The notes beneath the pieces are model-generated. The model did no database searches. It had not been told where the DNA came from and saw only the letters and a program-made list of their open reading frames with translations. This document shows positions 9,559 to 19,319 of a DNA stretch of 36,688 nucleotides, one piece after another. Positions within the stretch are counted from its first letter, which is position 1. Every line of letters starts with the position of its first letter. The position numbers were made by a program, and so were the translations under genes. The stretch is from a virus, in IMG/VR virus record IMGVR_UViG_3300043427_000721, positions 1 through 36,688 of that record, one strand, 5' to 3'.

Positions 9559-10217
9559 AGGTTTTTATTTTTCAATAGTATGTCACCTTGATAATCGCAT
9601 TCAATTTCAAAATCAGGTAATTTGTCTAAAATAGCCTGCAACCCTTTTTCACCTTGGTATAAATTACCAAGTGAGTATTCAGTATAAAAATACCTAACGT
9701 TTTTAAATGCCTTTTTACCTCCATTAATTAACTTTAATTCAGCTCCCTGTATGTCTGCCCAAACAAAGTCTATTATTTCATTTTCTAAATTTTGTTTTAT
9801 GAACGTATCGAATTTAATGGAGGTTGTTGTTTTTTCCTCAAACTTCATTTGATCCCAAAACTTCAAAACATCTTTAGGTTTGTTTATTGAAGATGATCCG
9901 TAATAGTGTTCGGTTACTTCATTGTTTACTATTTTTTGACCTCCCGATTCGTAAAATTTAACTTCACCGTCTACATTACCAATAGCCATGTTATAAATAT
10001 TGAACGTACCATTTGAGTAATTTTTTTTATTTGCATTAACCATGTCGAATAAACTTTTGACTGGCTCAAATGCGAAGTATTTAAACTTTTTGTTTTTTGA
10101 TTCCAATAAGTCTAAAATTTTATAAGAGTGGTATGCATCGCACATCCCAAACTCAAAAAACACTAATTCGTTTTTACTATCAATTATTTCGTTTATGTAT
10201 TCAAATATATCTTTCAT
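9555..10217 (-). CDS. FkbM-family methyltransferase (divergent)
   Basis: This 220-aa protein has a Rossmann-like layout. A strand and glycine loop VFFEFGMCDAYHSYK (residues 19-33) stands where a SAM-binding E/DxGxxxG is expected, followed by FAFEPVKSLF and IDFVWADIQGAELKLINGG, typical of FkbM methyltransferases (motif D-x-x-G-x-E/D). The SAM loop deviates from the usual GANxG. It overlaps a second FkbM gene by 4 nt and a glycosyltransferase by 4 nt. Such enzymes O-methylate sugars; here the target may be the glycan made by the neighbouring transferases. That link is inference. Confidence 0.8.
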   Translation of the reverse strand: MKDIFEYINEIIDSKNELVFFEFGMCDAYHSYKILDLLESKNKKFKYFAFEPVKSLFDMVNANKKNYSNGTFNIYNMAIGNVDGEVKFYESGGQKIVNNEVTEHYYGSSSINKPKDVLKFWDQMKFEEKTTTSIKFDTFIKQNLENEIIDFVWADIQGAELKLINGGKKAFKNVRYFYTEYSLGNLYQGEKGLQAILDKLPDFEIECDYQGDILLKNKNL

Positions 10218-16410: not shown

Positions 16411-17152
16411 TTTTACTATTTTTAATTTGTTCTATTATTTCGTTAAACTTTGAATTAATTACAGGCAAGTCTTTGTCTTTAAACCAATCAGGCAGGTTAT
16501 TTATTATTAGTTCAAACATTGATATCATGCTTTCGTCTGACGTATCGTTGTTTGTTTTTTCTAACAATGTTTTAATCTTGTCAAGTAGTTGTTTTAAGTG
16601 TTTGCCTGACATGCCATTAAATATATAGTTTACATGCAATTTTAACCAACAATCAACTGCAAGTTGATATATAGAATGTTTACTTTCTTTATGTTTACTT
16701 AGTATATCTTTACTTAGTAATTGTTTACTTTGTGTATGTTTACTTTGTAGGTGCGGTTTTACCGTAAGCGGTTTTACCGTTAACGGCTTTTCCGTATACG
16801 GTTTTACCGTTGACGGTTTTTCAGTATACGGTGAATATTGTTTTTCTTTTCTAAATGATTGATTCTTAGCAGGATCGTCATATACTGCATGGTCATATCC
16901 AATCCTTCCATTATTTCTTTTAGTGATTGTTTCAATATATCCCTTGTCTGCAAGTTCTTTAAATAGTTTGTCAAGTTTATCCCTACCAATATTAAGTTGA
17001 GCGTGTAACTGTGTTTTGTAAATTTTCCAATCAGCCGGTAAACTTAGAAAGTAAGTAAGTAATCCTAATGATTCAATTGACAAACCATTTTTAAAAACTT
17101 CATTTGGAATTACAGTGTAATTACTTGTATGTTTTGATTTATAAATAGCCAT
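16364..17152 (-). CDS. Replication initiator-like winged-helix protein
   Basis: This 262-aa protein's N-terminus (residues 15-80, NYTVIPNEVFKNGLSIESLG, then LNIGRDKLDKLFKELADKGY) is a winged-helix DNA-binding domain of the RepA/DnaD type. Residues about 107-158 are a run of five-residue repeats (TVKP/TEKP then SK-containing units) encoded by a 15-bp tandem array that probably forms the origin. The C-terminal part is helical (LAVDCWLKLHVNYIFNG, MISMFELIINNLPDWF), as in DnaD-like helicase-recruiting domains. The arrangement recalls lambda O, whose gene contains the origin iterons. It is preceded by a structured RNA leader whose T run touches the ATG. Confidence 0.75.
   Translation of the reverse strand: MAIYKSKHTSNYTVIPNEVFKNGLSIESLGLLTYFLSLPADWKIYKTQLHAQLNIGRDKLDKLFKELADKGYIETITKRNNGRIGYDHAVYDDPAKNQSFRKEKQYSPYTEKPSTVKPYTEKPLTVKPLTVKPHLQSKHTQSKQLLSKDILSKHKESKHSIYQLAVDCWLKLHVNYIFNGMSGKHLKQLLDKIKTLLEKTNNDTSDESMISMFELIINNLPDWFKDKDLPVINSKFNEIIEQIKNSKNGKNKPSSKFNGFGI
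16677..16751. repeat. 15-bp tandem repeats, array 1 (TGTTTACTT type)
   Basis: Five consecutive 15-bp units begin at 16677, 16692, 16707, 16722 and 16737. They share tGTTTACTT followed by variable bases. They encode the SK-containing pentapeptides of the initiator protein. They continue in the same 15-bp phase into the second array, so together they form a ten-unit iteron-like block. Confidence 0.88.
16752..16831. repeat. 15-bp tandem repeats, array 2 (CGGTTTTACCG type), probable origin iterons
   Basis: Five 15-bp units begin at 16752, 16767, 16782, 16797 and 16812, with a partial sixth at 16827. The core CGGTTTTACCG is palindromic (CGGT, 3 nt, ACCG), as a protein-binding iteron would be; some units are degenerate. 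They encode the TVKP/TEKP pentapeptides. AT-rich sequence follows on the right. Iterons inside an initiator gene are the lambda-type origin layout. Confidence 0.88.
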
Positions 17153-17162
17153 AAAAAAGTAA

Positions 17163-17249
17163 ACCCCAATTACTCATAGCCACCGACCAAAGAGGCGTCT
17201 GAGTAAAAGGGGTAATAATGTTAAATGTTTAATCACTTGGTCGGTAATT
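17163..17249 (-). ncRNA. Kissing-loop leader RNA B (before the initiator gene)
   Basis: In minus-strand RNA, hairpin 1 (17231-17249) has a 6-bp stem (AAUUAC with GUGAUU, one G-U pair) and a 7-nt loop CGACCAA. After a 17-nt linker, hairpin 2 (17163-17213) has a base stem of ACCCC with GGGGU, two mismatches, then seven more pairs, and a GCC/GGC top stem with a 12-nt loop containing UUGGUCGGU. That loop is complementary to hairpin 1 over 9 nt (ACCGACCAA). A T-rich tract follows and abuts the ATG at 17152. A promoter lies just upstream. The fold is the same as element A at 18864-18949 with different sequence. It could be an attenuator, riboregulator or small RNA. Confidence 0.75.
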
Positions 17250-17254
17250 TTACG

Positions 17255-17286
17255 TAAATTTAGTAACTTTCAATTAATTATCAAAA
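17255..17286 (-). promoter_or_regulatory. Bacteroidota-type promoter upstream of leader RNA B
   Basis: On the minus strand TTTTG (TTG at 17284-17282) is followed by 19 nt and then TAAATTTA (17262-17255), close to the -7 consensus TAnnTTTG. The start would fall a few bases before hairpin 1 of leader RNA B. The -33 box lies 1 nt upstream in coordinate terms of the stop (17287) of the nuclease gene. Confidence 0.7.
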
Positions 17287-17649
17287 TTAAATAAAACTTA
17301 ATTTTTTTATTAAATCAATTTCAGTTATTTCTTTATAATCAAAAAAACATTTGCCATCTTCAAAAGATGTATTTTCAAATTGAATAAGATGAAAACCATA
17401 ATAAGTCCAATCTTTATCAATTCCTTTTTTTATCCAATTATGAATATTAATCCACATTAATTTTTGACCTTGTCTAATTTCAGAATTTCTTGTTTTTATT
17501 TCTAAAAACATAACTTTTTTTGTTTTCCAATTCCATAAAATAAAATCTAAATCTGATGCAGAATATCCTGTTTGTGAATCAGGTAATTTTGATCTAATCC
17601 ACTTACTAAAATCTAATGATCTTATTCCTGTTATTTCTTTTCTAGTCAT
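17287..17649 (-). CDS. PD-(D/E)XK-type nuclease-like protein
   Basis: This 120-aa protein has the order expected for a PD-(D/E)XK nuclease. An N-terminal helix (LDFSKWIRSKLPDSQ) is followed by YSASDLDFILWNW with Asp at 33 and 35, then VMFLEIKTRN with Glu50 and Lys52 (E-x-K), and a polar helix RQGQKLMWINIHNWIKKG. It overlaps the methyltransferase gene by 4 nt. It may be a junction resolvase, recombination nuclease or VRR-type enzyme. It could also be the restriction partner of the methyltransferase. Activity is inferred from the motif only. Confidence 0.7.
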   Translation of the reverse strand: MTRKEITGIRSLDFSKWIRSKLPDSQTGYSASDLDFILWNWKTKKVMFLEIKTRNSEIRQGQKLMWINIHNWIKKGIDKDWTYYGFHLIQFENTSFEDGKCFFDYKEITEIDLIKKLSFI

Positions 17650-18842
17650 AAATTAGATTTAGCAATGTTATATGTTTGCTCATTTATTTCAGCACCTATT
17701 ATTCTTCTATTTTTTTGTTTAGCCACAATCATTGTTGTTCCGCTTCCTGCAAATGGCTCTAGAATTAAATCATTTGGTTTAGTAAACATTTCAATTAAAT
17801 AAGCTACTCCACTTTTGCTTTGTTGCCAATCATGACCGGTTTTTTCTCTACTTTCAGAAATAAAATAATCTTGAAATGTATTTTCAATTTTCTTTTTTCC
17901 ATTTTGAAAAATTAAAACAGGTTTCCATCTACACATTAAATTTATTCCATTTACAATTTGTGTTTGACCTTCATGATAAACTGCAAAAGTCCAGTAATAA
18001 TCTAAATTTTCACTCATTCTTTGCATCACTTCAGGTAAATACATTTGACCTGAATAAGCTATACAATATCCGTTTGGTTTTAATACTCTTTTTGCAAATC
18101 TTGATAATTTACTCCAACAATCAATAAATTCATAAGGATATGGTGGATCTGTTATTATACAATCAATACTTCCATTTGGTATATCATTAAATACATCTTC
18201 AAAATCTCCTAATCTAAAATCAATTTCAATTTCTTTTTTTGCTCCTAATTCAGCTAATTGTTTTCTTTCGTTTTCTTTTTGTTCTTTCTTTTCCTCTTTT
18301 TTAATTTCTTGGTAAACTTGATTAATACTTACATCGCCAGTTATTAATTTAGCTTTTATTTCTTCCGGTGCTTTTTCTTGAATTATTTTAACCTTTGCAA
18401 TAGTATCGTGTGAAACATTTGCAACCTTTGCAACTTCTTTTATTGTAACAATAGAGGGTTCTTCAGATTTCTGAATAAGGCTAAATTGATTAATACCTTT
18501 TTCTTGTTTTTCTTTTGCCTTAGTTTTAAATACATCTTCTAATTGTAAAGCTAATACTGAGCGTTGATAATTACTTAAATTACGTCTACCAAATTGGTTT
18601 AATATCATCCACTCTTTAACTTCATTTTCATCTACAAAAGTTTTTTCTATTGTATTAAAAAACAAATTATGTTTGTTTGCTATTTCGTACCTATTGTGTC
18701 CGTCAATGATATAACCATTCCAAGTTATAACAGGCTCTCTAATACCTTCAGCCTTGCAATTTTTCTCTAATTGTTCAAACTCTTCTTTTGTAAGTGGCGG
18801 AATTAACTTTTTAAATTCCTCATTAATTTTTAAATTTTTCAT
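17646..18842 (-). CDS. ParB-domain DNA methyltransferase fusion
   Basis: This 398-aa fusion protein has a ParB-like domain with the GYIIDGHNRYEIANKH motif (residues 43-58), followed by a helix-turn-helix (TIKEVAKVANVSHDTIAK, 133-150) and a charged linker rich in Lys and Glu (180-205). The C-terminal half is an amino-methyltransferase (N6-adenine or N4-cytosine): DPPY at 232-235 precedes the SAM motif FAGSGTT at 364-370, the permuted beta-type order. It probably protects phage DNA from host restriction at a specific site, or regulates genes. It overlaps the nuclease gene by 4 nt. Leader RNA A and a promoter lie upstream. Confidence 0.92.
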   Translation of the reverse strand: MKNLKINEEFKKLIPPLTKEEFEQLEKNCKAEGIREPVITWNGYIIDGHNRYEIANKHNLFFNTIEKTFVDENEVKEWMILNQFGRRNLSNYQRSVLALQLEDVFKTKAKEKQEKGINQFSLIQKSEEPSIVTIKEVAKVANVSHDTIAKVKIIQEKAPEEIKAKLITGDVSINQVYQEIKKEEKKEQKENERKQLAELGAKKEIEIDFRLGDFEDVFNDIPNGSIDCIITDPPYPYEFIDCWSKLSRFAKRVLKPNGYCIAYSGQMYLPEVMQRMSENLDYYWTFAVYHEGQTQIVNGINLMCRWKPVLIFQNGKKKIENTFQDYFISESREKTGHDWQQSKSGVAYLIEMFTKPNDLILEPFAGSGTTMIVAKQKNRRIIGAEINEQTYNIAKSNL

Positions 18843-18863
18843 ATTGTTTTTTTTTAAATAAAA

Positions 18864-18949
18864 AACCCCATCAAGCTTTGGGAGTCCGATTCCTACTCGC
18901 TTAACAGGGTTCTAAAATTTTTTATAAATGTAGCTTATCGGACAAGCTA
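18864..18949 (-). ncRNA. Kissing-loop leader RNA A (before the ParB-methyltransferase gene)
   Basis: In minus-strand RNA, hairpin 1 (18931-18949) is a 6-bp stem (UAGCUU with AAGCUA) with a 7-nt loop GUCCGAU. After a 20-nt linker, hairpin 2 (18864-18911) has a 13-bp base stem including three G-U pairs, a CCAAA bulge on the 3' side, and a GAGU/ACUC top stem closing loop AGGAAUCGG. Loop 1 bases CCGAU pair with loop 2 bases AUCGG (up to 7 bp if extended). A run of six U follows hairpin 2, as in terminators. A perfect promoter ends just before hairpin 1, so the RNA should begin at the hairpin. Element B has the same fold with different sequence. Confidence 0.75.
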
Positions 18950-18951
18950 TG

Positions 18952-18983
18952 CAAATATAATTAAATTATTTTAATTATCAAAA
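18952..18983 (-). promoter_or_regulatory. Bacteroidota-type promoter upstream of leader RNA A
   Basis: TTTTG (TTG at 18981-18979) is followed by exactly 19 nt and TATATTTG (18959-18952). This matches the TTG-N19-TAnnTTTG consensus of Bacteroidota housekeeping promoters. The -33 box overlaps the TGA stop of the SSB-like gene. Transcription would start at or near hairpin 1 of leader RNA A. Confidence 0.85.
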
Positions 18984-19319
18984 TGGCATGTCATCGTCTT
19001 CCTGATAACTTGCTTTTTTTGGAGTATAATTCCTTTTTTGTACTTCAATATCTGCATTGCTATCGTGTTTGGAAATAGCCCAAGCGGTAAGGCTATTATA
19101 GTACCTACCATTGTGCTCACGTCCGTTTATATTAAATTTAACGTTAATCATGTCGCCTTTACGGTATTTGTCAAGTATATCCACTCTATCGTTAATACAT
19201 TGAAAAATAACACGTTGTGGATATTTATCCTCAGTTTCAATTACAAACTCACGCACTCTAAATTTTTCGCTAACTTGTTTTTCATCGTATAGCATAACGA
19301 TTTTACCTGTTGTTTCCAT
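18978..19319 (-). CDS. Single-stranded DNA-binding-like protein (DUF3127-like)
   Basis: This 113-aa protein has a beta-rich OB-fold-like body (residues 1-95), including REFVIETEDKYPQRVIFQCI and a short RYYNSLTAWAI strand, and ends in an acidic tail EDDDMPF, the hallmark tip of bacterial SSB proteins used to recruit partner enzymes. This matches DUF3127-type proteins found in Bacteroidota. The neighbouring ERF, Gp157 and NinG genes support a role in recombination and replication. It is separated from the upstream 58-aa gene by 14 nt; the stop overlaps the -33 box of the following promoter. Confidence 0.85.
   Translation of the reverse strand: METTGKIVMLYDEKQVSEKFRVREFVIETEDKYPQRVIFQCINDRVDILDKYRKGDMINVKFNINGREHNGRYYNSLTAWAISKHDSNADIEVQKRNYTPKKASYQEDDDMPF

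Follow-up and report, generated by a model that had tools for sequence, protein, structure and literature searches.

To our knowledge, structured leaders that gate phage genes are represented by only a few models, namely lambda nut, HK022 put and the P1 and P4 RNAs. In plasmid ColE1, RNA I and RNA II form a kissing complex of fully complementary 7-nt hairpin loops, and in the rep attenuators of pT181 and pIP501 kissing loops decide whether a leader terminator is formed upstream of the replication initiator, the partner being a counter-transcript. The P4 CI RNA and the P1 c4 antisense RNA are derived from leaders and use complementary loops and termination to control a replication or an antirepressor operon. 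Kissing loops also decide on the leader terminator in the antisense-controlled attenuator icsA-RnaG (PMC5394118). HK022 put is a promoter-proximal phage RNA of two hairpins located at operon starts (PMC9378689). The candidate RNA HMP2_4078 of Bacteroidetes, a structured element of about 109 bp found near phage D5 primase domains, was described as palindromic and devoid of an intrinsic terminator (PMC8040213).

The window, i.e. the whole stretch of DNA analysed here, is a virus record of 36,688 bases with almost all genes on the minus strand. Leader B occupies positions 17284-17153 of that strand and fills the 134-base gap between an orf of 120 aa (17649-17287) and the gene for a replication initiator/DnaD-like protein of 262 aa (17152-16364; PHROG 1456, 4707, 186, 270 and 428). 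It starts with a Bacteroidetes-type promoter (sigmaA, −33/−7), TTG-N19-TAAATTTA (17284-17255), in which the final base of the −7 box departs from the consensus TAnnTTTG. Since the sigmaA −7 box of F. psychrophilum lies at −12 to −5 relative to the start site (PMC9723704), transcription of leader B is predicted to start at about 17250, with the first hairpin (HP1) beginning at about +2. HP1, AATTAC-CGACCAA-GTGATT (17249-17231), has a 6-bp stem with one U-G pair and a 7-nt loop (17243-17237). An A/T-rich linker of 17 nt (17230-17214) separates it from the terminator-like HP2 (17213-17163), which consists of a CCCC/GGGG base, an ACTCA/TGAGT mid-stem, a GCC/GGC top and a 12-nt apical loop and is followed by the U tract TTTACTTTTTT (17163-17153), which runs right up to the initiator ATG (17152-17150). 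The strand ACCGACCAA (17245-17237), made up of the seven loop nucleotides and two stem nucleotides of HP1, is the exact complement over 9 nt of TTGGTCGGT (17190-17182) within the apical loop of HP2.

Every element that the earlier note had placed in leader B was present and correct to the base, including the U tract that touches the initiator ATG. The 9-bp pairing of the loops proposed there holds as a 9-nt complement, but a kiss of 9 bp would consume two nucleotides of the HP1 stem, so its loop-loop part comprises only 7 bp. HP2, described there as terminator-like, has internal loops and an interrupted U run, and a simple terminator scan did not flag it. In comparison with shuffled sequences the whole of leader B folds better, with z = −3.21, and so does leader A, with z = −4.2, and the predicted energy of the kissing duplex is −13.8 kcal/mol for leader B and −9.2 for leader A, in comparison to −5 to −6 for cross pairs. 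HP2 folds in silico without kissing, so a role of the kiss in termination is not forced by energetics.

Leader A, also on the minus strand (18981-18856), precedes the gene for a protein of 398 aa combining ParB-like and N6 DNA methyltransferase parts (18842-17646). Its promoter TTG-N19-TATATTTG (18981-18952) is followed by HP1, TAGCTT-[GTCCGAT]-AAGCTA (18949-18931, loop 18943-18937), and by HP2 (18911-18864), which carries a loop-E-like AGUA/AAA internal loop and an apical ATCGGAC (18890-18884) complementary to the HP1 loop. With the published spacing of the −7 box (PMC9723704) the predicted +1 of leaders A and B falls at, or inside, the start of HP1. The orf of 120 aa (17287-17649), situated between the methyltransferase gene and leader B, had no Pfam or PHROG match; its adjacent position suggests a nuclease partner of the ParB-methyltransferase.

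The initiator gene itself contains direct repeats at 16700-16830 of the window, with GGTTTTACCGTNNNCGG-like units followed by TTTACTT-like units, and the same stretch encodes the protein repeats EKPSTVKPYTEKPLTVKP and SKHTQSKQ. The repeats look like iterons. In some phages the replication origin is located inside the initiator gene, and the match in phage 80alpha is annotated as 'putative replication origin'. Downstream of the primase gene the window also encodes a glycosyltransferase-like phage protein (12291-13367; PHROG 7162, E = 4.4e-46).

Among dinucleotide shuffles of leader B, 2/4000 contained a hairpin like HP1 with a complement of 9 nt downstream and 49/4000 one with a complement of 7 nt, so that leader B alone is suggestive at about 5e-4. 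The decisive evidence came from relatives. A set of 47 sequences was used, comprising the window and 46 viral loci fetched by their initiator and methyltransferase genes. A detector combining promoter, HP1 and a complementary U-tracted HP2 found 22 elements with widely different loops in this set, in comparison to one in the shuffled copies. The complementarity between cognate loops averaged 7.0 nt, whereas 10,000 permutations of the partners gave at most 4.78 nt. Judged by these sequence comparisons, the architecture of leader B is not a product of chance.

The same plan was found at the same place before initiator homologues with the HP1 loops GTCAGAT (L002), GTGAAGA (L254), GTCGGAT (L257), GTTGCAG (L258) and GTCGCAT (L260), each of which has its complement in HP2, and it was visible by eye in L259 (GTTCAG) and L261 (GAGTCAG). 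In the more distant phages L271, L273-L275 and L277, whose hosts are possibly outside Bacteroidetes, the plan occurs with a sigma70-like promoter, and in L269 it has a different geometry. In L273 (from 1357 onward), L271, L274, L275 and L277 HP1 is long (9-12 bp) and separated from HP2 by a third hairpin, and the kissing loops measure 7 to 9 nt. Among initiator homologues, L256 and L270 had no leader, and none was seen before the annotated ones of Alistipes AS73P1, PHS3, Bacteroides VA7, V039C and tant8-1, where the gene mostly overlaps or abuts its neighbour. The L003 initiator is preceded by a leader of the loop-E subtype (L003:3900-4000), whereas its homologue in the window follows leader B (17153-17284), and such leaders therefore appear to have been swapped as modules.

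The loop-E-like HP2 (AGUA/GAA) is common to several leaders, and a pattern built from it was scanned against viral contigs. It matched 104 stretches, 74 of them distinct, and in 62/74 an apical-loop 6- to 9-mer was exactly complementary to the HP1 region. Among the 73 matches with enough flank, the kiss and the U tract occurred together in 61 and were both missing in 11; the remaining one had a U tract and a kiss with a one-base mismatch. The U tract was thus present in all 61 kissing leaders, while 11 of the 12 other matches had neither feature. In 60/60 leaders an ATG follows the beginning of the U run at a distance of 10-46 nt, and the 59 parsed leaders carried 25 distinct kissing sequences. 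The genes behind them are very diverse (DUF6291, NUMOD4-HNH, methyltransferase, initiator, helicase and orphans), mostly not initiators.

Because HP1 loops of 6-8 nt shift the register in MAFFT, no joint covariance model of HP1 and HP2 was built. The HP2-only model R1 used instead represents the loop-E subtype, with its AGUA/GAA internal loop, covarying stem and U tract; it detected leader A (51.8 bits, E = 7.6e-09) and did not match leader B. On sequence grounds leader A is a member of the large loop-E-like subfamily, and leader B represents another subtype, found upstream of homologous initiators. In leader B none of the five parts of the plan (promoter, HP1, HP2 with its U tract, complementary loops and ATG) is missing or out of order, which places it by sequence in a large family of phage leaders. 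A second subtype, seen at L007:4262, L010:2526, L017:64, L025:531 and L030:404, combines HP1 loops of 12-14 nt with tandem purines in the HP2 internal loop (AUGAAG/CGGAU-like), which replace the loop-E-like module.

Nineteen aligned leaders were examined for covariation. In the kissing helix 133/133 cells were paired and 7/7 pairs had two-sided changes, and the helix surpassed all 500 shuffles both in score and in the number of double-change cells; since the sequences had been selected for an exact complement, the percentage paired is inflated, and the comparison of two-sided changes with shuffles carries more weight. When the partner was shifted by 1-3 columns, pairing of the helix fell to 32-39 %. 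In HP2 stems 92 % of cells were paired and 13/14 pairs had two-sided changes, and the HP1 stems covary too.

The kissing sequences also change between close relatives. The initiators of L257 and L258 share 186/202 residues (92 %), yet 4/7 kissing pairs of their leaders have two-sided changes. Leaders with at least 85 % identity differed at 18 % of kissing positions, 0 % of HP1 stem and 9 % of HP2 stem positions, whereas for distant pairs the order is reversed (29 % at kissing positions versus 44-48 % in stems); the compared pairs are not independent and recombination is possible. From these alignments, loop codes seem to change quickly within a lineage and to reappear in others. Covariation in relatives, the partner permutation and these natural compensatory swaps strongly support the selected fold with loop-loop pairing for which the earlier note had argued. 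The controls named in that note do not speak against the fold: equal complementarity is rare in shuffled leader B, the element is present in relatives, and both the kissing helix and the stems covary there. Leaders A and B, noticed originally for their common plan, belong to one architectural family and are not an isolated coincidence.

Exactly one loop-E leader was found in 27/36 phage records and two in none. An additional leader of another subtype with unrelated loops is present in the window, in G010, G011, G014, G018 and L007 and in the contig of L378; a second candidate in G025 (TCGCAC, long linker) was rejected as probably due to chance. Cultured phages have leaders as well, ahead of gp48 and immediately upstream of an HTH gene in Croceibacter phage P2559S and ahead of gp62 in Flavobacterium phage 11b. 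Flavobacterium phage snusmum6-1 (L389, NC_048841) carries three, at 9722, 13648 and 14697, with three unrelated kissing sequences, located before a helicase gene, an HNH endonuclease gene and a small gene upstream of the helicase-primase module. The family is essentially absent from cellular genomes: the only real pattern match in 84,980 species genomes was on a phage-like contig of 12.9 kb from a Lacinutrix MAG, and the same contig accounts for the 1/397 Flavobacteriaceae genomes with a leader.

Sequence and covariation establish the hairpins HP1 and HP2, the helix between their loops, the U tract and the location of these elements between promoter and gene. On this basis leader B is considered, with moderate confidence, to be a promoter-proximal, self-contained transcription attenuator in which kissing sets the read-through into the downstream gene. 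The host-type promoter would give an RNA beginning with HP1, and during transcription of HP2 the HP1 loop would pair with the apical loop to form a kissing complex. HP2 with its U tract would act as an intrinsic terminator just before the ATG, where RNA polymerase would either release an RNA of roughly 98 nt or continue into the initiator and primase genes. The kiss, formed co-transcriptionally, would set the ratio of release to read-through by affecting how fast HP2 closes, and either direction is possible. Every transcript must pass the U-tracted hairpin that separates the gene from its promoter, and control of termination by the leader fold is plausible. The earlier note had suggested that the fold might in addition govern ribosome access and thereby replication. 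We infer that HP2 terminates, that the kiss alters termination and that the expression of replication or modification genes is thereby delayed or limited, such attenuators being placed where replication and modification operons begin.

The fully complementary 7-nt loops of ColE1 have their counterpart in L257 and L260, where both loops are 7 nt long and all seven bases are complementary, and L258 has the same 7-bp kiss. Unlike in ColE1, both loops of the phage leader are on one RNA, the partner hairpin carries the U tract and no antisense transcript is needed. The partner loop in cis likewise distinguishes the leader from the antisense attenuators of pT181/pIP501 and icsA-RnaG; in the search for opposite-strand promoters beside leaders A and B, the plus strand yielded relaxed matches only, at 16968, 18021 and 19111, and no site of full consensus lay close upstream. 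An attenuator of the riboswitch or T-box style was rejected, as mutually exclusive antiterminator pairing, sought between the upstream RNA and the HP2 arms, was no better than in shuffles (0/50 and 2/50 at p<0.05), which leaves the kiss as the sole conserved long-range contact. By these sequence features the leader would work like a leader attenuator using ColE1-type kissing loops, and it fails the tested c4/P4 and riboswitch-like features.

Fast loop divergence among close relatives is a hint at specificity in trans. Fast switching combined with recurrence resembles the behaviour of specificity determinants, and this underlies a tentative second proposal, rather doubtful at present, that the loop pair is a private intermolecular recognition code by which phages, for the most part not seen as prophages, sense the dose of their own RNA while ignoring, or being isolated from, co-infecting relatives whose code is different. 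Terminated leader RNAs would then build up as the number of phage copies rises, and would kiss HP1 or HP2 of the same kind while these are being transcribed.

The attenuator reading has also to be weighed against other roles. The compact unit of promoter, RNA and terminator and the very diverse genes behind the leaders would suit a stand-alone gene for a small RNA of ~98 nt, the downstream gene being expressed otherwise. It is unlikely, since the ATG is never far behind the U run (60/60 leaders), mutual pairing of the loops would hide a seed, and a phage may have two to three units with unrelated loops.

A put-like element, in which the folded nascent RNA docks on RNA polymerase so that terminators are then ignored, would agree with the position of a two-hairpin RNA right downstream of the promoter at phage operon starts, as in HK022 putL (PMC9378689), and the conserved loop-E-like module AGUA/GAA could serve docking or bending. 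Compared by description, put acts on distal terminators and no terminator at its own end is described. Its copies are alike in sequence (PMC9378689), whereas the leader subtypes share none, the U tract is constant in kissing leaders and leader B is without the loop-E module, and this role is accordingly held improbable.

A role of the HP1-HP2 kiss in stabilising the mRNA at its 5′ end or in gating the loading of ribosomes, with no termination involved, is equally improbable. In its favour, HP1 lies at about +1, HP2 of leader B ends 11 nt from the ATG, and initiation in Flavobacterium prefers low structure at −20 to +20 (PMC6847099). A constant U tract would be needless for such a role, and the distance between U run and ATG varies from 10 to 46 nt, so no fixed geometry is kept towards the ribosome site.

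RNA immunity of the P4 CI or P1 c4 kind, in which a short RNA of the resident phage stops transcription of an incoming relative, shares with the leader the derivation from a phage leader, the complementary loops and the position ahead of replication genes, and loop specificity does change between close relatives. P4 CI and c4 are trans-acting RNAs of temperate elements and are not based on a U-tracted hairpin, whereas the leader contains its complementarity in one RNA and is nearly absent from prophages; the single genome match and 1/397 family genomes led to rejection of prophage carriage, making such immunity very improbable. For a DNA-level dyad (operator or origin) or coincidence it can be said that complementary loops are inverted repeats in DNA too and that leader B precedes an initiator gene. 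This reading has next to no credibility: most downstream genes are not initiators, the repeats sit in the loops of hairpins whose stems covary and which are accompanied by a U tract, slid and shuffled controls collapse, and the covariation already contradicts it.

The kissing-leader family is apparently undescribed. Rfam 15 at the gathering threshold gave 0 matches in the window, and a permissive Rfam search of 17100-19000 gave one chance-level match, located elsewhere. Nothing was found when the 15-20 kb region was compared at the nucleotide level with annotated phages, BLAST of the leader alone against phages gave chance-level matches only, and the open-access literature searched contained no description of such a family. 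HMP2_4078 differs by its description, having no intrinsic terminator where the leader has a U-tracted hairpin.

A family spread over many Bacteroidetes phages, with a kissing code that changes and always matches itself, would be a new architecture of regulatory RNA and would offer a natural library of orthogonal kissing-loop switches. Its occurrence in cultured phages makes it directly testable. It would give a handle on gene timing in phages of a host phylum in which phage regulation is little studied, and if the intermolecular reading is true, the loop code would be a means of recognition between molecules that separates co-infecting relatives.
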